DNA of 64,000 nucleotides from Inconstantimicrobium porci (GTDB lineage: Bacteria > Bacillota > Clostridia > Clostridiales > Clostridiaceae), in contig NZ_VULX01000004.1 in NCBI RefSeq assembly GCF_009696465.1, positions 1 through 64,000 of the forward strand, written 5' to 3'. Positions 156 through 64,000 of this stretch are shown here, piece by piece. Within the stretch, counting starts at the first letter, position 1; the number at the start of each line of letters is the position of its first letter. The notes beneath the pieces were generated by a model, which searched no databases, was not told where the DNA came from, and saw only the letters and a list, made by a program, of their open reading frames with translations. The translations under genes and the position numbers were made by a program.

Positions 156-1862
156 TTGTTAAGAAAGTTTATTGAATTCTACAAACCGTATATAAAGTTA
201 TTTACGCTTGATTTTATAGCGGCATTTCTTGCAGCAGGATGTGATCTTGTATATCCAATGATTACAAGAAACATAATTAATGATATCGTACCAAATAGAA
301 AATTCAGATTTCTTATAATTTTTGCGGTAGCATTACTTATAATTTATATTGCAAAAGCAGGACTTAATTATTTTATGACTTATTATGGACATGCTGTTGG
401 AGTAAGAATGCAGGCTGATATGAGACAGAAGATGTTTGATCATCTTGAAAACCTTCCATGTGAATATTTTGATAACAACAAGACTGGAGTAATAATGTCA
501 AGAATGGTTAATGACCTTATGGAAGTTTCAGAGCTTGCTCATCATGGCCCAGAAGATATTTTTACTTCACTTGTTATGTTTATTGGTGCATTAATTATAC
601 TATGCACAATAAATGTGCCACTAACACTTATAATTTTTGCATTTATTCCTCTTCTTTTATGGTTTACGCTTAGCAGAAGAAAGAAGATGACAGATGCCTT
701 TTTAAAGACTAAGGTTAAGATAGGTGAAGTAAATGCTACACTTGAGAATAGTCTTGCAGGTGTAAGAGTAACAAAGTCATTTGTTAATAAGGAACATGAA
801 ATGAAGAAGTTCAAGGTTAACAATATGAAATTTAAGGAAGCAAGAGAATATGCATATAAAACAATGGCGGAGTATTTCTCTGGAATGAACTTCTTTACTG
901 ATCTTTTAAGCCTTATTGTACTTGTAGTTGGTGGTGTTTTTACTTACAATGGGTCAATTACTATTGGTGATTTTACAGCATATATTCTTTATATAAGTCT
1001 TTTTACTAATCCGGTTAAGAAGCTTGTAAACTTTATGGAACAGTATCAGGCAGGAGCAACAGGCTTTAAGAGGTATATGGAGATAATGGATCAGATTCCT
1101 GAAAAGGATATTGAACATGGTAAGGAACTTAAAGATGTTAAGGGGAATATTGATATAGAAAATGTATCTTTCAGTTATGAAAATAATGAGAAAGTACTGC
1201 AGAACTTCAGTCTTTCAATACCAGCAGGTAAAATGGTTGCACTTGTAGGTCCTTCAGGTGGAGGAAAGACAACTATTTGTAATATGATTCCGAGATTTTA
1301 TGAATATGATTCAGGAAATATATATATTGATGGTACAGAAATTCATGATGTTTCACTAAAATCTTTGAGAGATAACATAGGTATAGTTCAGCAGGATGTA
1401 TTTTTATTCACAGGTACAATTAAAGATAATATAGCATATGGAAATCCTGATGCTACTGATGAAGATATTATGAGAGCGGCTAAGATGGCGAGCCTCCATG
1501 AATTTGTAATGACACTTAAAGATGGCTATGATACATACATTGGAGAAAGAGGAGTCAAGCTTTCAGGAGGACAAAAACAGAGAATATCTATTGCGAGAGT
1601 ATTCCTTAAGAATCCGCCAATATTGATTCTTGATGAGGCAACTTCAGCTCTTGATAACATAACTGAGCATGAAATTCAGATGTCTTTAGAGAAGTTATGT
1701 GCTGACAGAACTACTCTTGTAGTAGCTCACAGGCTTTCAACAGTACAGCATGCTGACGAAATAGTTGTAGTTACAGACAAAGGTATAGAAGAAAGAGGAA
1801 CACACGAAGAACTTATGAAGCAAAATGGAATATACGCAGGATTCCATGTAGTATATAAGTAA
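156..1862 (+). CDS. ABC multidrug/lipid exporter half-transporter (MsbA/LmrA-like)
   Basis: A 568-residue fused exporter: about six membrane helices in residues 1-300, then a nucleotide-binding domain. Walker A (GPSGGGKTT) is near residue 365, followed by signature LSGGQKQR, Walker B ILILDEATSALD and the switch His in VAHRLST. Families of this type work as homodimers or heterodimers in the membrane and export drugs, lipids or peptides; the substrate cannot be read from sequence. I chose the TTG at 156 because GAGGTGA lies six bases upstream; the GTG at 147 has no usable ribosome site. There is no partner half-transporter beside it, so a homodimer is likely. A weak hairpin at 1900-1930 may terminate it. 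Confidence 0.9.
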   Translation: MLRKFIEFYKPYIKLFTLDFIAAFLAAGCDLVYPMITRNIINDIVPNRKFRFLIIFAVALLIIYIAKAGLNYFMTYYGHAVGVRMQADMRQKMFDHLENLPCEYFDNNKTGVIMSRMVNDLMEVSELAHHGPEDIFTSLVMFIGALIILCTINVPLTLIIFAFIPLLLWFTLSRRKKMTDAFLKTKVKIGEVNATLENSLAGVRVTKSFVNKEHEMKKFKVNNMKFKEAREYAYKTMAEYFSGMNFFTDLLSLIVLVVGGVFTYNGSITIGDFTAYILYISLFTNPVKKLVNFMEQYQAGATGFKRYMEIMDQIPEKDIEHGKELKDVKGNIDIENVSFSYENNEKVLQNFSLSIPAGKMVALVGPSGGGKTTICNMIPRFYEYDSGNIYIDGTEIHDVSLKSLRDNIGIVQQDVFLFTGTIKDNIAYGNPDATDEDIMRAAKMASLHEFVMTLKDGYDTYIGERGVKLSGGQKQRISIARVFLKNPPILILDEATSALDNITEHEIQMSLEKLCADRTTLVVAHRLSTVQHADEIVVVTDKGIEERGTHEELMKQNGIYAGFHVVYK

Positions 1863-1899
1863 TTTAAAATTTAAAATGTACAAGGTATAATTTGGCAAG

Positions 1900-1930
1900 A
1901 AATCCGCTAGACTTATGCTCGTGGATTTTT
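1900..1930 (+). terminator. Probable terminator of the ABC exporter
   Basis: AAATCCGC pairs with GTGGATTT and is followed by a short T-run. It lies 38 bases after the stop codon. Confidence 0.5.
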
Positions 1931-1954
1931 GCATTTTAATGAAGGATACCTTCA

Positions 1955-2010
1955 AGCCTCTGTGATTTAATCTATAATTTTAAAATCTAAAGTCTAAATT
2001 AATAAATGGT
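1955..2010. repeat. Fragment of AT-rich repeat end (class A)
   Basis: The stretch ATCTATAATTTTAAAATCTAAA and its continuation resemble the right end of the repeat copies at 6520 and 33018, but the inner hairpins are missing. GAAGGATACCTTC just upstream is a small palindrome. It may be a decayed or solo end. Confidence 0.45.
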
Positions 2011-5650: not shown

Positions 5651-6517
5651 ATGGATAGTTTTCCTAAGAGTTTTCCTGCTCAACATCAGGATAGTCAGCC
5701 AGGGATTGAGTTACAGATGATGCCTCAGCCTGTTTATATAAAAGATGGTTATAATAAAATTACTGATAGACTTAAAGATAAAGTTGCTGTAATTACAGGT
5801 GGTGACAGTGGTATTGGAAAAGCTGTATCATTTGCTTTTTCAAAGCAGGGGGCAAAAGTAAACATAGTTTGCACCGAAAAAGAAAAATGTGATGCAGAAG
5901 AAACAAAGAAGGAAATTGAACTTGAAGGCGGAACGTGTGATATATATTATGGAGATGTTAAAGATGAGCAGTTCTGTATAAGCGTAATAGAAGGAGTCAT
6001 CAAGAAATATGCCACAATAGATGTTCTGGTAAATAATGCAGCTGTTCAGTATCCTCAGCAGAAGATTGAAGATATAACAACACAGCAGATGAAGGAAACT
6101 TTTGAAACAAATATATTCAGCTATTTCTATTTTACTAAAGCAGCTATGAAATATCTTAAGAAAGGTTCAAGTATAATCAATACAAGTTCAATAACTGCAT
6201 TTAAAGGCAGCAAGGACCTTATTGATTATTCAGCTACAAAAGGAGCAATAGCTTCATTTACAAGATCACTGGCAACAAATCTTGCAGATAAGGGTATAAG
6301 AGTTAATGCTGTAGCACCTGGTCCTATATGGACTCCACTTATAGTATCTTCATTCGATTCAACAAAAGTGTCACAGTTTGGAACTGATAATCCAATGAAG
6401 AGGGCAGGTCAGCCAGTAGAAGTAGCAGGAGCATATGTATTTTTAGCTTCATATGATGCATCATACATAACTGGTCAGACAATACACGTAAACGGCGGAG
6501 AAATCATCAACGGGTAA
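5651..6517 (+). CDS. SDR-family oxidoreductase (YghA/GSP39-like)
   Basis: 288 residues. A 40-residue N-terminal tail rich in Pro and Gln precedes a classical short-chain dehydrogenase fold. Motifs: cofactor site TGGDSGIG near residue 50, NNAA, a catalytic Ser in NTSS, YSATK (Tyr and Lys), and GPIWTPL. The N-terminal extension is typical of the general-stress glucose/aldehyde dehydrogenase-like group (YghA, YdaD). It acts as an NAD(P)-dependent cytoplasmic enzyme with unknown substrate. It has its own AAGGAGTGAT ribosome site. A modular repeat starts almost at its stop codon. Confidence 0.85.
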
Positions 6518-6519
6518 TA

Positions 6520-6728
6520 AATTTAGAATTTAAAAATTAAAATTTAAAATTGAGGAAGGAATCAGCATGCTGATTCCTTTATTTTATATGGAGGCGCTGC
6601 CTCCAAACCGCTTAATTCTCTAATTGATAATTAAGAAGAGTTTTAAAGAGGAGAATTCTCCTCTTTTTTCGAAACTCCCACGGAGTTTCATCCATAATTT
6701 TAAATTCTAAAATATAAATTTTAAATTA
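6520..6728. repeat. Modular hairpin repeat, copy 1 (AT-rich ends, class A)
   Basis: Four inner hairpins between AT-rich ends: 6558-6577 (GGAATCAGC/GCTGATTCC), 6590-6604 (GGAGGC/GCCTCC), 6646-6665 (AAGAGGAGAA/TTCTCCTCTT) and 6671-6689 (GAAACTCC/GGAGTTTC). The AT-rich ends are roughly inverted copies of each other. The third hairpin is followed by a T-run and could end transcription. The order matches the copies at 26593 and 33018. Confidence 0.85.
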
Positions 6729-6844
6729 CTTCTAAACATTTAAAAATATTGAAAAAGTATTTTTATGTTATACCGTAATTAATTGAAAAGGATAATGTAT
6801 AATAATAAGTAGAGTGAAAAATTATTTATATGATGGGAGATAAT

Positions 6845-14529: not shown

Positions 14530-14662
14530 AAAATTTGTAGATTAGATCAGAAATCAGAACGAAGAGAGCAGAGAAAAGGATGAAACTCCCTAGAGGAGTT
14601 TCGAGCCAAGGTATAAGCGAACAAATTCCTTTCTCTCTGATCTCATATCTCTAATCTATCAA
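14530..14662. repeat. Modular hairpin repeat, copy 9 (class B, short)
   Basis: The left end has GATTAGA and GAGAGCAGAGAAAAGGATG. The hairpin GAAACTCC/GGAGTTTC is at 14582-14602. The right end reads CTCTCTGATCTCATATCTC followed by TAATC. The GAGGA and GGAGG hairpins seen in other copies are missing, leaving a short remnant (AAGCGAACAAATTCC). Confidence 0.75.
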
Positions 14663-26571: not shown

Positions 26572-26592
26572 TTTTATATCTCCAATCATTAT

Positions 26593-26805
26593 TAATTTAG
26601 AATTTAAAATTTATAATGTATAATTCAGGCTGAAATCAGCTTACTGATTTCCACATCTTAATGGAGGCAAATCCTCCAAACTTCCTAATTATATAACTAA
26701 GTAATTAGAGATGTTTTAAAGAGGAGAGATCTCCTCTTTTTAGAACTCAGCCGAAGGCAGAGTTCAATCCAAAATTATAAATTATAGATTTTATATTATA
26801 CATTT
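26593..26805. repeat. Modular hairpin repeat, copy 2 (class A) inside the thi operon
   Basis: Hairpins on the plus strand: 26632-26651 (GAAATCAG/CTGATTTC), 26663-26677 (GGAGG/CCTCC), 26719-26738 (AAGAGGAGA/TCTCCTCTT) and 26743-26765 (GAACTC...GAGTTC, a stem that has changed on both sides relative to other copies). The ends are AT-rich. It lies between thiF and thiG, both on the minus strand, so it is transcribed as part of the operon. Confidence 0.85.
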
Positions 26806-26829
26806 TTATGTTATTTGCTAAAATTTTGA

Positions 26830-32508: not shown

Positions 32509-33021
32509 ATGAACCCAATAGTTACTTTTAAAATGAAAGACGGAGGAGTTATAAAGGCTGAACTTTACCCTGAAATAGCACCAAATACAGTTAAGAATTT
32601 TGTAAGCCTTGTTAAACATGGATTTTACGATGGACTTATATTCCACAGAGTTATACCAGGATTTATGATTCAAGGAGGTTGTCCGGATGGAACAGGAATG
32701 GGTGGACCTGGATATTCAATAAAGGGAGAATTCACTAGAAATGCATTTAAGAATGATTTAAAACATACAAAAGGTGTTCTTTCAATGGCAAGAACTATGG
32801 CATTTGATTCAGCAGGAAGCCAATTCTTCATAATGACAGCAGATGCTCCACATCTTGACGGACAGTATGCTTCATTCGGAAAAGTTATTGAAGGAATGGA
32901 TGTTGCAGAAAGAATAGTTAACGTAGACAGAGACTACAATGATAAGCCATTAGCAGATCAGGTTATGGAAAGTGTTACTGTAGAAAACGCAGATAACATG
33001 GAAGAACCAGAGACAATTTAA
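32509..33021 (+). CDS. Peptidyl-prolyl cis-trans isomerase, cyclophilin type
   Basis: 170 residues. Active-site segments FHRVIPGFMIQGG, SQFFIMTADAPHLDGQYASFG and MARTMAFDSAGS are complete. There is no signal peptide, so it acts in the cytoplasm, catalysing proline isomerisation during folding. AAAGGAG is at good spacing. A class A repeat begins at its stop codon. Confidence 0.95.
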   Translation: MNPIVTFKMKDGGVIKAELYPEIAPNTVKNFVSLVKHGFYDGLIFHRVIPGFMIQGGCPDGTGMGGPGYSIKGEFTRNAFKNDLKHTKGVLSMARTMAFDSAGSQFFIMTADAPHLDGQYASFGKVIEGMDVAERIVNVDRDYNDKPLADQVMESVTVENADNMEEPETI

Positions 33022-33232
33022 AATTTAGATTTTAAAATTTAAAATTGAAAGAAGAAATCATCAGGCTGATTTCTTAAGAATTATATGGAGGCTTTGCCTC
33101 CAAACCTCTGAATTATTTAATTTTAAATTAAGTGGAGATTTAAAGAGGAGAATCTCCTCTTTTTTTGAACTCCCGTTGGGGAGTTCAATCCATAATTCTA
33201 AATTTTACAATTTAAATTCTAAATTAAAAAGG
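33018..33232. repeat. Modular hairpin repeat, copy 3 (class A)
   Basis: 33054-33073 (GAAATCA/TGATTTC), 33087-33101 (GGAGGC/GCCTCC), 33142-33162 (AAAGAGGAGA/TCTCCTCTTT, followed by a T-run) and 33167-33186 (GAACTCCC/GGGAGTTC). Ends such as ATTTAGATTTTAAAATTTAA are AT-rich. It ends right at the ribosome site of the next gene. Confidence 0.88.
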
Positions 33233-34360: not shown

Positions 34361-34365
34361 AAAAT

Positions 34366-34562
34366 TAAGAATTAAGGTTTCAGAATGATGAATTATGGAT
34401 GAAACTCCTTAAGGGAGTTTCAAGATAAGAGGACAAATTCCTCTTAAAATCTCTTTAGATAATAAAAGTCAGAGGTTTGGAGGTGAAACCTCCATTAAGA
34501 TTTAGAAATCAACTAGCGAAGCTATGTCAATTTTATCCTCAATTCATCATTCTTCATTCTGC
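34366..34562. repeat. Modular hairpin repeat, copy 4 (reverse order)
   Basis: Hairpins in reverse order relative to class A: 34401-34421 (GAAACTCC/GGAGTTTC), 34427-34445 (AAGAGGA/TCCTCTT), 34479-34493 (GGAGGT/ACCTCC) and 34505-34534 (GAAATCAACTAGC with its approximate complement). The outer ends CAGAATGATGAATTA and ATTCATCATTCTTCATTCTG are inverted copies of each other. It lies directly before the csp gene. Confidence 0.82.
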
Positions 34563-34627
34563 TTTCATAAATTTATTCTAAATTGTATGTTTTATAAATA
34601 TATAATTATTATATAAATATTGCGGAA

Positions 34628-39548: not shown

Positions 39549-39876
39549 TGCATAAATCATAACGCATAATTCATAATTAAGGACAAAGTTCATTTCGCTG
39601 CGCTTAACGAATTTTAAATTAGAATGATATTAATTAGATTAGAGATAAGAAGTAAGAGAGTAGAGAAAAGGATGAAACTCCTTCGGGGAGTTTCAAGATA
39701 AGAGGACGAATTCCTCTTAAGAACTCTTTATTAATCAAGGATATAGAGGTTTGGAAGCAAAAAGCCTCCATTTAAGCTTAGAAATTAGTACGAGAAACGA
39801 ACTAATTTCATCCGATACTCTTATCTCTGCTCTCCAATCTTTTTAAATCTAAGACTATGCATTATGAAAAATGAGT
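39547..39876. repeat. Modular hairpin repeat, copy 5 (nested composite)
   Basis: The outer left end (39547-39588, AATGCATAAATCATAACGC then ATTAAGGACAAA) is close to the reverse complement of the right end of copy 6. Inside it, a class B element (about 39634-39841) runs from GATTAGAGATAAGA to TCTTATCTCTGCTCTCCAATC. Its hairpins are at 39674-39694, 39700-39718, 39753-39769 and 39781-39809 (GAAATTAGT/ACTAATTTC). The outer right end is GACTATGCATTATGAAAAATGAG-like, about 39852-39875. Confidence 0.8.
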
Positions 39877-39878
39877 TA

Positions 39879-40799
39879 TCAATCATGATCTACTCCCTCA
39901 AAATTAAATGGTGGAATAAATGATATGTCGTTTGTTCCATTTTCTTGTATGAAGCCGTTTTTAACTCCAATGCTTAGAGCATAGTCTATAAGGCTATCAT
40001 AATGCTTTGGATTAAGGCTTTTATTTATTTCTGGGTAATTACATGCTTTGTGCATTGGAATATACTGATTCATAATGCTTATGTAAACTGAATCTTTGAA
40101 GTTATTGTAAATACAGTCTATTACCTTTTTTGAATCAAAAAGAAGTCCTGGCAGCATAAGATGTCGTACAATAACACCTTTTATCATTATTCCATCTTCA
40201 TTAAATTGAGGCTTACCTGCCTGATTAACCATTTCTCTTATAACTTCAACTACATTTTTGCTGTAATTAGGAGCAAAAGAATATTTAGCTGCATATTTAT
40301 CATTAAAGTATTTAAAATCTGGTAGATAAACATCCACTATACCATTTAAAAGTTTTATAGTTTCAACTGTATCATAGCCATTTGTGTTGTAGACTACTGG
40401 AAGATTAAGTCCTTTTGACTTGGCAATTTTTAATGCTTCTATTATTTGTGGTACAAAATGAGTAGGTGTAACAAGGTTGATGTTGTTTGCACCTTGATCC
40501 TGAAGCTCTAAGAATATTTCACTTAATCTTTCTATAGAAATAATTTTACCTTTATTCTCCTGGCTTATTTCATGGTTTTGGCAAAATACACATCTAAAAT
40601 TGCAGTTTGAAAAAAATACAGCACCTGATCCTTTTGTACCTGAAATGCATGGCTCTTCCCATTTATGAAGGGCAGCTCTTGCAATAACTATATCTGAAGT
40701 AGAACGGCATACGCCGGTTTTACCTTCTAATCTATTTACTCCGCAGTCTCTTATGCAGAGTCTGCACTCTTTTAATAATTCCAATTCATTTGATTCCAA
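39879..40799 (-). CDS. Radical SAM protein, PFL-activase-like (PflX/AmmeMemo type)
   Basis: About 306 residues. The radical SAM cluster motif is CNFRCVFC near residue 70, preceded by an N-terminal Cys cluster (CRLCIRDCGVNR, then GVCR) and followed by NGYDTVE and DFKYFNDKYA. Relatives are pyruvate formate-lyase activase homologues of unknown target in anaerobes. I prefer the TTG at 40799, since GTGAGGTG lies six bases upstream; the GTG at 40808 overlaps that site. It is single, with a repeat upstream. Confidence 0.8.
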   Translation of the reverse strand: MESNELELLKECRLCIRDCGVNRLEGKTGVCRSTSDIVIARAALHKWEEPCISGTKGSGAVFFSNCNFRCVFCQNHEISQENKGKIISIERLSEIFLELQDQGANNINLVTPTHFVPQIIEALKIAKSKGLNLPVVYNTNGYDTVETIKLLNGIVDVYLPDFKYFNDKYAAKYSFAPNYSKNVVEVIREMVNQAGKPQFNEDGIMIKGVIVRHLMLPGLLFDSKKVIDCIYNNFKDSVYISIMNQYIPMHKACNYPEINKSLNPKHYDSLIDYALSIGVKNGFIQENGTNDISFIPPFNFEGVDHD

Positions 40800-40886
40800 A
40801 GAAAACACCTCACTGTTAAATATTATACCATAGAGGAAGAGGCAATATTTGAATTAGAATTGAGATTAAATAGTGAAGATTCTGTA

Positions 40887-41072
40887 AGAATGTATAATGT
40901 AAAATATAGGAAGAAACTCCTTTGCGGGAGTTTCGAAAAAAGAGGAGAATTCTCCTCTTTAAAACTTTTTTTATTTATAATTAGGTAGTTTGGAGGGTAT
41001 CCCTCCATTTTTTAAAATTCATAAGCTTTGCGTCGAATTTTGTCCTTAATTATGCGTTATGAACTATGCATT
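40887..41072. repeat. Modular hairpin repeat, copy 6 (ATGCATAA-type end)
   Basis: 40913-40934 (GAAACTCC/GGAGTTTC), 40940-40959 (AAGAGGAGAA/TTCTCCTCTT), 40992-41006 (GGAGGG/CCCTCC) and 41014-41041 (AAAATTC/GAATTTT). Right end: TTAATTATGCGTTATGAACT then ATGCATT. It runs into the end of the YkvI-like gene. Confidence 0.82.
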
Positions 41073-42142: not shown

Positions 42143-42590
42143 ACTCCTAGTTGTAATATCATACTAAAATATATTTATTGTTTAGCTATTTTATTCATGT
42201 TCTAAAATTTACATTCTTTATTTTTTATGTTTTATTATATAATAAAGGTAAAAGATTTAAGGAATACAAAACATATATATGATTAAGATAATGCTCGATA
42301 AGTGAGAATTTGTAGAGTAGAGATTAGAACTAAGAGAGCAGAGAAAAGGATGAAACTCCTACGGAGTTTCGAATTAAGAGGATAAATTTCTCTTAAAAAC
42401 TCTTTAGGTAATGTGATTTTAGAGGTTTGGAGGTGAAACCTCCATTAAAATTAGAAATTTACAAGCACAGCGAGTAAATTTCAACCTGTTCTCATATCTC
42501 TAATCTTTTTCAAACTTTAGTTTGTAGAGATGATTTGTATATTATGATGAAATTAAATCGAACTATTAATATAAAGGTAACGGTGATTTT
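42143..42590. other. Intergenic region between divergent genes
   Basis: It holds class B repeat copy 7 (42320-42506) and AT-rich flanks. No coding frame with a ribosome site was seen. Confidence 0.6.
42320..42506. repeat. Modular hairpin repeat, copy 7 (class B, best preserved)
   Basis: Left end GATTAGAACTAAGAGAGCAG and AGAAAAGGATG. Hairpins: 42352-42370 (GAAACTCC/GGAGTTTC), 42376-42394 (AAGAGGATAAATTTCTCTT), 42429-42443 (GGAGGT/ACCTCC) and 42454-42482 (GAAATTTAC/GTAAATTTC, 9 bp perfect). Right end CTGTTCTCATATCTCTAATC. The outer ends pair as inverted repeats (GATTAGA... with ...TCTAATC). Confidence 0.9.
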
Positions 42591-48482: not shown

Positions 48483-48775
48483 AATGAAAAAACTATGATT
48501 AGGAAAAGTACTTAAACTTAATCTTATAGAGAGCAGTTGGTTGGTGTAAAGCTGTAGTTTGATTTAAGGAAAATCACCTATGAGTTGGAGGCTGAAAGAG
48601 TTCAATTAAGCTTATCTCGTAATTCTGCGTTAAAGAATAGAGCATTATAATGTGCTTGAATGGAGTTCTGTATAGTTTCGATGCATGATAAAATGTCGAA
48701 GGATAAAACAGACTATAATCTATAGGTGGTATAGCGAATATAACTTCGTCCTTGTTAGGATGAAGTTTTTTTATT
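48483..48775 (+). ncRNA. T-box leader, isoleucine specific
   Basis: Stem I with AGAGAGCAGTTGGTTGGTG; specifier codon ATC (48573-48575) in GGAAAATCACC; T-box ATAGGTGGTATAGCG at 48722-48736; terminator ACTTCGTCCT/AGGATGAAGT at 48743-48766 with seven T. It should switch on ileS when tRNA-Ile is uncharged. No inserted element is seen, unlike the Tyr leader. Confidence 0.95.
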
Positions 48776-51970: not shown

Positions 51971-52003
51971 AAAAAGCCGGAGGGAATTGCCTCTGGCTTT
52001 TTT
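51971..52003 (+). terminator. Terminator of ileS
   Basis: AAAAAGCCGGAGG pairs with CCTCTGGCTTTTTT. Confidence 0.88.
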
Positions 52004-52016
52004 CTATAATAAGATA

Positions 52017-52289
52017 GATAAACTGAAAAAGATTAAAGATATGAGAGCAGAGATAAGAGAACAGGATGAAAATGCTATATACTTAGGAATATTTGCGACC
52101 GAAGAGGACAAGCTTATTGGATTTATAGCACTGCATAGTTTTAATTATATTAATAAGAAGCTAAAGATAGGTTATGTGTTAAATAAAAAATATCGAAAAA
52201 GAGGATTTATGGTTACAATGAGGGAAGATTATAAATTGAATGGTACATTATTTAAAATTAACAGTTATTTAAAAATGTATTTAATATAA
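52017..52289 (+). pseudogene. Remnant of a GNAT acetyltransferase (RimJ/RimL-like)
   Basis: The frame reads IYLGIFATEEDKLIGFIALHSF and KLKIGYVLNKKYRKRGFMV, the central strands of a RimJ/RimL-type acetyltransferase. It then jumps straight to REDYKLNG, which normally lies near the C-terminus. About 45 residues holding the acetyl-CoA loop are missing, the N-terminus is also absent, and no ribosome site precedes it. The frame starts inside the ileS terminator. It is most likely a decayed gene. Confidence 0.65.
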
Positions 52290-55735: not shown

Positions 55736-56079
55736 ATCAAGGTTCTCCTTTTCATCTTTAAAATAAGTAGATACTTTTATGGTATCATGACTAAATATTG
55801 TTTTCAAGGCATATAAATTAATGATTAATATAAATAAAAAAGAACTATAGCATTAACGTTGATTTATCCAAGCCTCTAAATTTGCATATTATAGTGGTTT
55901 GTAGGCAGGCCTCCATTAAAACTTTTTATTTCATGTGATGGTCTCATGAAATATTTCCTTACCTTGTACCTGTGACTTTTGACCTCTTCTGCACAGCATA
56001 CTTTATAGGTATAAGTTATATAAATTAGTTAAATGATACCTTAGATACATAATTAAAAAAATAAAAAGGAGAATACAGT
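55736..56079. other. Intergenic region with decayed modular repeat
   Basis: About 55868-55955 holds pieces of the modular repeat: CCTCTAAATTTGCAT, then GGTTTGTAGGCAGGCCTCCATT (a damaged GGAGG/CCTCC module) and TATTTCATG/CATGAAATA. The rest is AT-rich with no gene. Confidence 0.5.
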
Positions 56080-61309: not shown

Positions 61310-61487
61310 GAATTTGTGAATTAGTTAAGAGATTAGAACTAAGAGAGCAGAGAATCGGATGAAACTCCTATGGAGTTTCTAGCAAATGTATAAGCAGGCA
61401 TACTAAATCAAAGATTTGGAATGCCTGCTTAAGCGTAGCGAATAAATTCCATCCTGTTCTCTTATCTCTGCTCTTATATCTCTAATC
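61310..61487. repeat. Modular hairpin repeat, copy 8 (class B with swapped core)
   Basis: Left end GATTAGAACTAAGAGAGCAG as in copy 7; 61361-61379 (GAAACTCC/GGAGTTTC). The GAGGA and GGAGG hairpins are replaced by a different stem at 61392-61430 (AAGCAGGCAT/ATGCCTGCTT). Right end CTCTTATCTCTGCTC then TCTCTAATC. It abuts the stop of the sigma factor gene. Confidence 0.8.
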
Positions 61488-62041
61488 TATTTATTATCAA
61501 GCAGCTGTTTTTGTAGCTTGGTTAGCGCTTTTCTCTTTATAAACATAACCTGACTGTATGTTAAGTGAACTTCCTTTGCATATTGTCTATAGGATTTGTT
61601 TTTGAAAAAACATTGCCTTATAAGATGCTGTTCCTTCTCATCAAGATTTTTTAGTGATTTTAAAAGTACATCATAATCAGCTTTTAATATTATATCTTCC
61701 ACAAGATCATGAGTAGTCTGTTCCACAAATTCAAAGTTATCCACGTAACAGTTTGATTCTTTTTCTGGCACGCTTCTTCGTATTTTATAATTTACTTGAT
61801 TTTTGATAGCAGTAAGTGCATAGCCAAAAAATCTGTGCTTGTCCACGTTGTAGTATTTCACAGCCTTTGATAGAGCAAGATAGCATTCTTGATATATATC
61901 TTCAAAGGTATAACCGTCGATAAAGCTTTTTTTGCAGAGATTAATGATGAAAGGCCTGAACTTTTCATACAGTTCTTTTTCAGCTTCTTTATCTCCGTTT
62001 TTTGTTTTTATTACTAATTCCTCGAATGAATTTATTTCCAA
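61487..62041 (-). CDS. Sigma-70-like factor, TcdR/UviA group
   Basis: 184 residues, the size of the TcdR/BotR/TetR/UviA group-5 sigma factors. Region 2 is about 15-85 (FEDIYQECYLALSKAVKYY) and region 4 about 120-180 (LKNLDEKEQHLIRQCFFKNKSYRQYAKEVHLTYSQVMFIKRKAL). Members drive toxin or bacteriocin genes, and UviA is DNA-damage inducible. The TTG start (GGTGGTGA upstream) may keep expression low. A LexA-like box lies inside its promoter. No toxin or bacteriocin gene is next to it in this window. Confidence 0.78.
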   Translation of the reverse strand: MEINSFEELVIKTKNGDKEAEKELYEKFRPFIINLCKKSFIDGYTFEDIYQECYLALSKAVKYYNVDKHRFFGYALTAIKNQVNYKIRRSVPEKESNCYVDNFEFVEQTTHDLVEDIILKADYDVLLKSLKNLDEKEQHLIRQCFFKNKSYRQYAKEVHLTYSQVMFIKRKALTKLQKQLLDNK

Positions 62042-63954: not shown

Positions 63955-64000
63955 AGATTGAGCAAGATGCTCAATAATAATTTAGAATGTAGGATTTAGA
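63955..64000. repeat. Hairpin and start of another class A repeat at window edge
   Basis: TTGAGC/GCTCAA hairpin, then AATTTAGAATGTAGGATTT, which matches the outer end of class A copies. The rest is beyond the window. Confidence 0.45.

Follow-up and report, generated by a model that had tools for sequence, protein, structure and literature searches.

The nine intergenic sites considered here, all within one 64,000-nucleotide stretch of the Inconstantimicrobium porci genome (the window, i.e. the whole stretch that was analysed), are probably copies of a mobile DNA element, old and non-autonomous, that resembles MITEs in size and habit and in whose propagation the folded form matters. A preliminary description of the window had claimed that these sites represent one modular structured family, and all nine are indeed matched by the covariance model described below. 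The most distinctive feature of the family, a pair of arms built of phased heptads, was absent from that description.

Anatomy of the element

The element consists of two inverted arms of about 38 nt each and a core of two to five hairpins, in the order left arm, GGAT, hairpins A and B, stem C, hairpins D and E, right foot and right arm. It lies where the preliminary description had placed it (42320-42506), but with both heptad arms included it extends over about 208 nt rather than 187. The reference copy is made up as follows.

42305..42512, plus strand: reference copy of the element, with GA-type heptad arms and five hairpins
42311..42347, plus strand: left arm, about five GA-type heptads
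42348-42351, plus strand: left foot, GGAT
42352..42370, plus strand: hairpin A, GAAACTCC/GGAGTTTC
42375..42395, plus strand: hairpin B, TAAGAGGA/TTCTCTTA
42400..42424, plus strand: stem C, CTCT/AGAG, with 78% pairing the weakest of the stems
42428..42444, plus strand: hairpin D, TGGAGG/CCTCCA, whose closing pair covaries
42454..42482, plus strand: hairpin E, GAAATTTAC/GTAAATTTC, the core stem with most variation
42483..42512, plus strand: right foot AACC, followed by the right arm, whose heptads are complementary to those of the left one

The right foot, AACC in this copy (42305-42512), is ATCC in most others. Folded as single-stranded DNA, the same segment reaches a minimum free energy of -30.9 kcal/mol versus -16.7 for shuffled sequences (z -4.5). 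Being short, devoid of coding capacity, bounded by inverted ends and placed at AT-rich intergenic sites, the element shares these traits with MITEs. Because loops vary in length, RNAalifold overlooked stems C and E in the first alignment, and column pairing was used instead to define the structure.

Each arm contains about five heptads anchored at the foot, with phase-specific preferences summarised by the consensus ARWKHAN, i.e. A (0.8-0.95 in most), a purine, A or T, T or G, not G, A, and any base. Identity at lag 7 amounts to 0.64 in left and 0.62 in right arms (z about 15), with peaks also at lags 14 and 21 (z 9-15 over lags 7, 14 and 21), and the same lag test applied to random window segments gave no 7-nt periodicity. 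When 422 kb were scanned for periodic inverted pairs, 45 were found at period 7 versus 3-11 at periods 5, 6, 8, 9 and 10; 227 kb from other Bacillota held two at period 7. About eight heptad versions were seen in the genome (among them AGATTAG, TATAATG, AATTTAG, AATTCAT, CATAATG, AGGTCAC, AATGCCA and AGTGAAT), and their identity varies by subfamily while period and phase stay constant. Left and right arms carry the same version in most elements; hybrid-arm elements also exist (e.g. L123:4877 and L102:3492), as expected if recombination exchanges element halves.

In their phasing, their degeneracy and their strong preferences by position, the heptads resemble an array bound by a protein. Could the copies then be chromosome-organising or regulatory DNA sites, with heptad arrays that bind a nucleoid protein or a regulator, as proposed in Geobacter metallireducens, where the available text describes five tandem heptads in opposite-strand pairs (PMC2700814)? 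We consider this quite unlikely, given that the distribution of the element is patchy, with none found in a genome of the same genus (G001), that many different heptads coexist within one genome, and that a duplex site would not need multi-hairpin cores.

Just beyond the heptad arms, some copies carry an outer motif, CGATAAANTNGAATTTG, at times as a small palindrome (GATAAACTTCAGTTTATC). Sites of this kind are 42296-42312 in the window, L113:2440-2780 and L094:11096-11171, the first being an extra motif, CGATAAGTGAGAATTTG, at the left edge of the reference copy, from about 42296. The proposal that an outer motif, GATAAACTAGAATTT, forms the true end of all elements was rejected (25 of 119 approximate matches adjoin an element), and as many elements are without GATAAACTAGAATTT, it marks a subset only.

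Copies in the window

Besides the reference copy, the window contains the following copies and remnants.

1856..2005, strand not assigned: degenerate copy with AATTTAA-type arms
6517..6730, minus strand: copy with AATTTAG-type arms
14541..14662, plus strand: short copy with GA arms and hairpin A, lacking the middle modules
26589..26806, minus strand: copy with AT-type arms
33013..33226, minus strand: copy with AATTTAG-type arms and hairpin A of the form GAACTCCC/GGGAGTTC
34363..34575, plus strand: copy with GAATGAT-type arms
39550..39888, strand not assigned: arms of an older CATAATG-type element, enclosing the copy at 39628-39845 (nested insertion)
39628..39845, plus strand: GA-type copy nested inside the CATAATG-type element 39550-39888
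40885..41070, plus strand: hybrid copy, left arm AT-type and right arm CATAATG-type
52026..52071, minus strand: arm remnant that forms the 5' part of an apparently truncated GNAT reading frame
55800..55970, plus strand: weak, degenerate copy (E 1.9e-5)
61320..61492, plus strand: GA-arm copy in which one long hairpin (GCAGGCAT..AATGCCTGC) takes the place of the middle modules
63973..64000, plus strand: left arm of a copy that runs beyond the window end (core G000:C34:64001-64161)

The stem variant GAACTCCC/GGGAGTTC mentioned in the preliminary description is thus present at 33013. Its assertion that modules are common to the nine sites holds insofar as they form one family, but not for the copies at 14541 and 61320, which are without the middle modules. 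The covariance model scores the matches at 34385 (E 2.9e-39), 42336 (7.8e-39), 39658 (4.8e-38), 6542 (1.4e-32), 40897 (7.9e-30), 33037 (1.6e-28) and 26616 (5.1e-26), all of them in its training set, so that these E-values are partly so by construction. The copies at 61345 (1.7e-9) and 14566 (1.7e-4), like about 120 further genome copies, lie outside the model alignment and owe nothing to construction; the E-values of the covariance models are rough throughout.

Two observations concern sequences associated with these copies. A hairpin unit of about 50 nt (AAGCGAACATGCCAAATC..GATTTGGAATGCCTGCTT), often in tandem, substitutes for the middle modules at 61383-61438 of the window and at L116:3616, L108:3874-3974 and L110:3540; for 31 of 35 such units an element is found within 200 nt, and the units are better conserved than the elements themselves. 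The 46-nt arm-like stretch at 52026-52071 is 91% complementary to the arm at 61447-61492 and falls within the open reading frame 51987-52289, whose match to the 138-position GNAT profile PF13302 is confined to positions 46-99; judged by its sequence, this acetyltransferase looks truncated at the element remnant.

Copy number and covariation

A BLAST search of the genome with the copy 42311-42515 returned 45 matches. An alignment of 22 full-length copies, made by sequence (A2), was combined with the column-pairing structure into a covariance model (R1), which produced 146 matches at E <= 0.05 in the 3.2-Mb genome, at about 140 places; a few matches represent one place on both strands, because the element as a whole is nearly palindromic, and with 150 candidates scored the figure of about 140 is possibly low.

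That the stems covary was claimed from the outset, and the numbers bear it out. In A2, 89.9% of cells are paired and both sides have changed in 20 of 49 pairs (99 cells), compared with 3-9 pairs and 5-21 double-changed cells when partners are slid by one to three columns. In particular, the closing pair of GGAGG/CCTCC varies and yet pairs (T-A 11, C-G 3, G-C 1), and in the last module the compensating change appears on both sides (alignment columns 151-153), each as first described. To remove most shared ancestry, disjoint closest pairs of copies were then compared. Among differing pairs, compensated changes from one Watson-Crick pair to another made up 13% in A2 and 19% in A3 (the model-fitted alignment, 70 copies of which entered this test), versus 0-4% with slid partners; since the copies first counted were also those that had supplied the structure, the disjoint-pair test and the cross-genus test given below reduce the circularity rather than remove it. 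Between paired copies, divergence was 0.14-0.16 in stem columns and 0.37 in unpaired ones. Compensated changes together with low stem divergence imply that stem sequence and pairing are both constrained, and the original formula of a conserved structure without a conserved sequence is therefore right about pairing but overlooks that the stems are also the slowest-changing parts.

Genomic placement and age

Elements avoid genes: in 531 kb that are 84% coding, 79 of 81 lie outside predicted genes (binomial P 2e-59). Gene prediction followed a simple open-frame rule, and the presence of elements was part of the reason for choosing these 531 kb. Among the sites occupied, gaps between convergent genes are enriched (21 of 77 versus 48 of 398 gaps, P 0.001). 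The nesting of the copy at 39628-39845 within the arms of the older element 39550-39888 was already listed above. No sampled pair of copies exceeds 90% identity and the nearest-neighbour median is 78%, which gives no indication that the element has moved recently. Inspection by eye of the flanks of about 100 of these old copies revealed no consistent target-site duplication. Neither a BLAST search of plasmid and phage collections with one copy nor a scan of viral contigs for an exact pattern gave a match. The solo palindrome at L094:11096-11171 was considered as an empty site and rejected, as it has the appearance of an element that lost its interior.

Paired as RNA or as DNA?

Covariation by itself might signify selection on RNA, with the copies transcribed as structured 3' untranslated regions, bidirectional terminators or small RNAs. 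The RNA folds are stable, some hairpins are followed by T runs in the manner of terminators, and the enrichment between convergent genes fits as well. However, stems kept as RNA should tolerate G-U far above A-C. This is what 21 tRNAs from fetched loci display (21 versus 1), whereas the stem mismatches of the sequence-based alignment A2 are evenly divided into 30 G-T and 29 A-C (Fisher P 0.0002). The model-fitted set contains 187 GT and 137 AC, but this set leans towards G-U, and the cousins described below contain 63 and 30, counted after a model-based selection that favours GT. The even split shows that mismatches in present copies accumulated regardless of RNA pairing, which is compatible with an RNA role in an active minority. 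In addition, copies between tandem genes point both ways (30 in the direction of the genes, 19 against it), and arms and modules have been replaced wholesale. Rfam, searched over the whole window at the gathering threshold, identified only a T-box elsewhere in the window (an ordinary leader at 48486-48756, upstream of a 1049-aa open frame), and its permissive mode returned no relevant match for four loci, in keeping with the initial statement that no named family was recognised. Taken together, an explanation by functional RNA seems unlikely, and nothing in the sequences suggests that the copies are kept as RNA. Of the two options first offered, functional RNA or single-stranded DNA, the latter is retained, and the former loses weight because G-T and A-C mismatches are equally frequent.

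What would the life of such a DNA element look like? As a mobile element it would spread through a folded single strand or a cruciform, and a host or transposon enzyme would recognise the paired heptad arms and the foot. If only copies able to fold were passed on, compensated changes would arise between lineages, and inserted copies, once free to decay, would gather G-T and A-C mismatches equally. Recombination between copies may exchange modules and half-elements.

The search for an associated enzyme covered two families, Y1 transposase and reverse transcriptase, and neither tracks the element: Y1 matches occur in 27 of 33 genomes with the element and in 95 of 114 without it (P 0.80), reverse transcriptases in 23 of 33 and 74 of 114, respectively (P 0.68). 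This bears on the idea that the element is REPIN-like and moved by a transposase of the Y1 kind (RAYT or IS200/IS605). In its favour are features known from REPINs (PMC3116915), namely small inverted pairs with hairpins, compensatory changes and dispersal between genes, and also the six Y1 matches in the genome of the window (G000). As Y1 presence does not follow the element and complete element-positive genomes exist without any Y1 match (e.g. G099 and G056), we regard it as decidedly unlikely.

Relatives in other genomes and the rRNA spacer

Model R1 yielded weak matches in nine more genomes of the family, with the same anatomy and different heptads and stem sequences; the heptads of these cousins include (AGTACAG)n, (AATGCAC)n, (AATTAAC)n and (AGTTAAG)n. 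A second model of 89 positions (R2), built from eight two-hairpin cousins, matched 33 of 147 sampled family genomes, in 20 of 46 genera, and among 249 sampled genomes of the phylum only the window's own (0 of 248 others). With one element taken from each of 24 genomes, 91.5% of cells are paired and double changes number 107, versus 17-19 with slid partners. Relative to the outcomes that the preliminary description had named as speaking against its claim, there is strong covariation, about 140 copies and, for a cousin, orthologous empty sites; the covariance-model search that it had proposed, through the whole genome and related clostridia, brought up extra copies in the genome and cousins across the family. 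It is a tentative possibility that all these represent a family-wide class of mobile DNA tagged by a phased heptad code, in which five ARWKHAN units per arm can be swapped as a matched pair and the folded strand is read by a mobilising enzyme.

The orthologous site concerns a cousin in G031, which occupies the spacer between 23S and 5S rRNA in each of the ten operons found (L162, L187-L196). Its arms differ between operons by exactly 7 and 21 nt, hence arms gain and lose whole heptads. In several other genera the same spacer is short and without the cousin element, in some cases with unrelated inserts, and in the same-genus genome G066 it contains a one-arm remnant. This shows one orthologous site with and without the element, for the cousin rather than for a copy in the window; the G031/G066 pair taken alone could equally reflect a deletion. 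The G031 element lies inside the rRNA operon and is nearly identical among operons. The 23S-5S spacers L212, L223 and L224 of other clostridia harbour different two-hairpin inserts that have no heptad arms.

The whole-heptad differences between operons demonstrate slippage, and one may ask whether mutation could have made the entire structure, with quasi-palindrome correction and replication slippage generating long inverted repeats and heptad arrays in the absence of selection. Template switching in hairpins produces compensated changes and symmetric mismatches. This account would leave unexplained why stems, foot and heptad phase are shared by 140 dispersed copies and across genera, and why stems diverge less between copies than loops; it is disfavoured and, in our estimation, highly improbable.

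Comparison with known systems

The best-supported reading is that the element works like a MITE; the named systems were compared with it mostly by description. Like MITEs (PMC10969869), it is shorter than 500 bp, AT-rich and intergenic, with inverted ends and no reading frame; unlike them, it has phased heptads of changing identity instead of a fixed terminal inverted repeat, and the inspection of flanks and the search for two enzyme families identified neither a target duplication nor a parent insertion sequence. The review cited makes no mention of Clostridium or heptamers, and literature searches found no description of the element in clostridia.

REPINs with their RAYTs (PMC3116915) are likewise inverted doublets with single-stranded DNA hairpins and compensatory changes. 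However, a REPIN is composed of two inverted, short, conserved palindromic REPs, whereas the arms here are runs of about five heptads whose sequence differs by subfamily, the cores are multi-hairpin and Y1 does not track the element. The BOX elements of Streptococcus, as far as the available account of their architecture goes (PMC3049150), are also composites of interchangeable folding modules and probably old mobile elements, but they have sequence-conserved boxA and boxC ends with no heptad arms described, and belong to another host order. In the same genus group, the accessible text of one report lists the stem-loop repeats Clop-1 of C. perfringens (93 bp, 44 copies) and Clot-1 of C. tetani (74 bp, 19 copies) (PMC2267715). 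Clop-1 is nearly as long as the 89-position cousin model, and both may be relatives of the element, a comparison made by size and description.

The closest published arrangement found is that of the class 3 sites of Geobacter metallireducens, which the available part of the report presents as multicopy, with eight pairs, and proposes as sites for IHF/HU or a global regulator (PMC2700814). Five tandem heptads in inverted pairs are common to both systems, but compared by eye the Geobacter heptad is MTYCTGA rather than ARWKHAN in many versions, and, within that text, no multi-hairpin core is described. The cyanobacterial STRR heptamers (PMC2670836) and the TAACTGA repeats of Beggiatoaceae (PMC4679880) are intergenic tandem heptanucleotides, too, some with hairpins, but they form direct arrays or simple hairpins and not the arms of a modular element.

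Such a covariance model lets annotators label loci that would otherwise be called small RNAs or terminators in clostridial genomes, and the count of G-T versus A-C mismatches offers a cheap test of DNA-level versus RNA-level covariation for other orphan structured repeats. Heptads in tandem or in pairs were reported independently from cyanobacteria, Beggiatoaceae and Geobacter, with no common explanation. Here they form both ends of a defined element that folds, is dispersed and keeps its shape in at least 20 genera, and what makes and reads tandem heptads thus becomes testable in laboratory clostridia.
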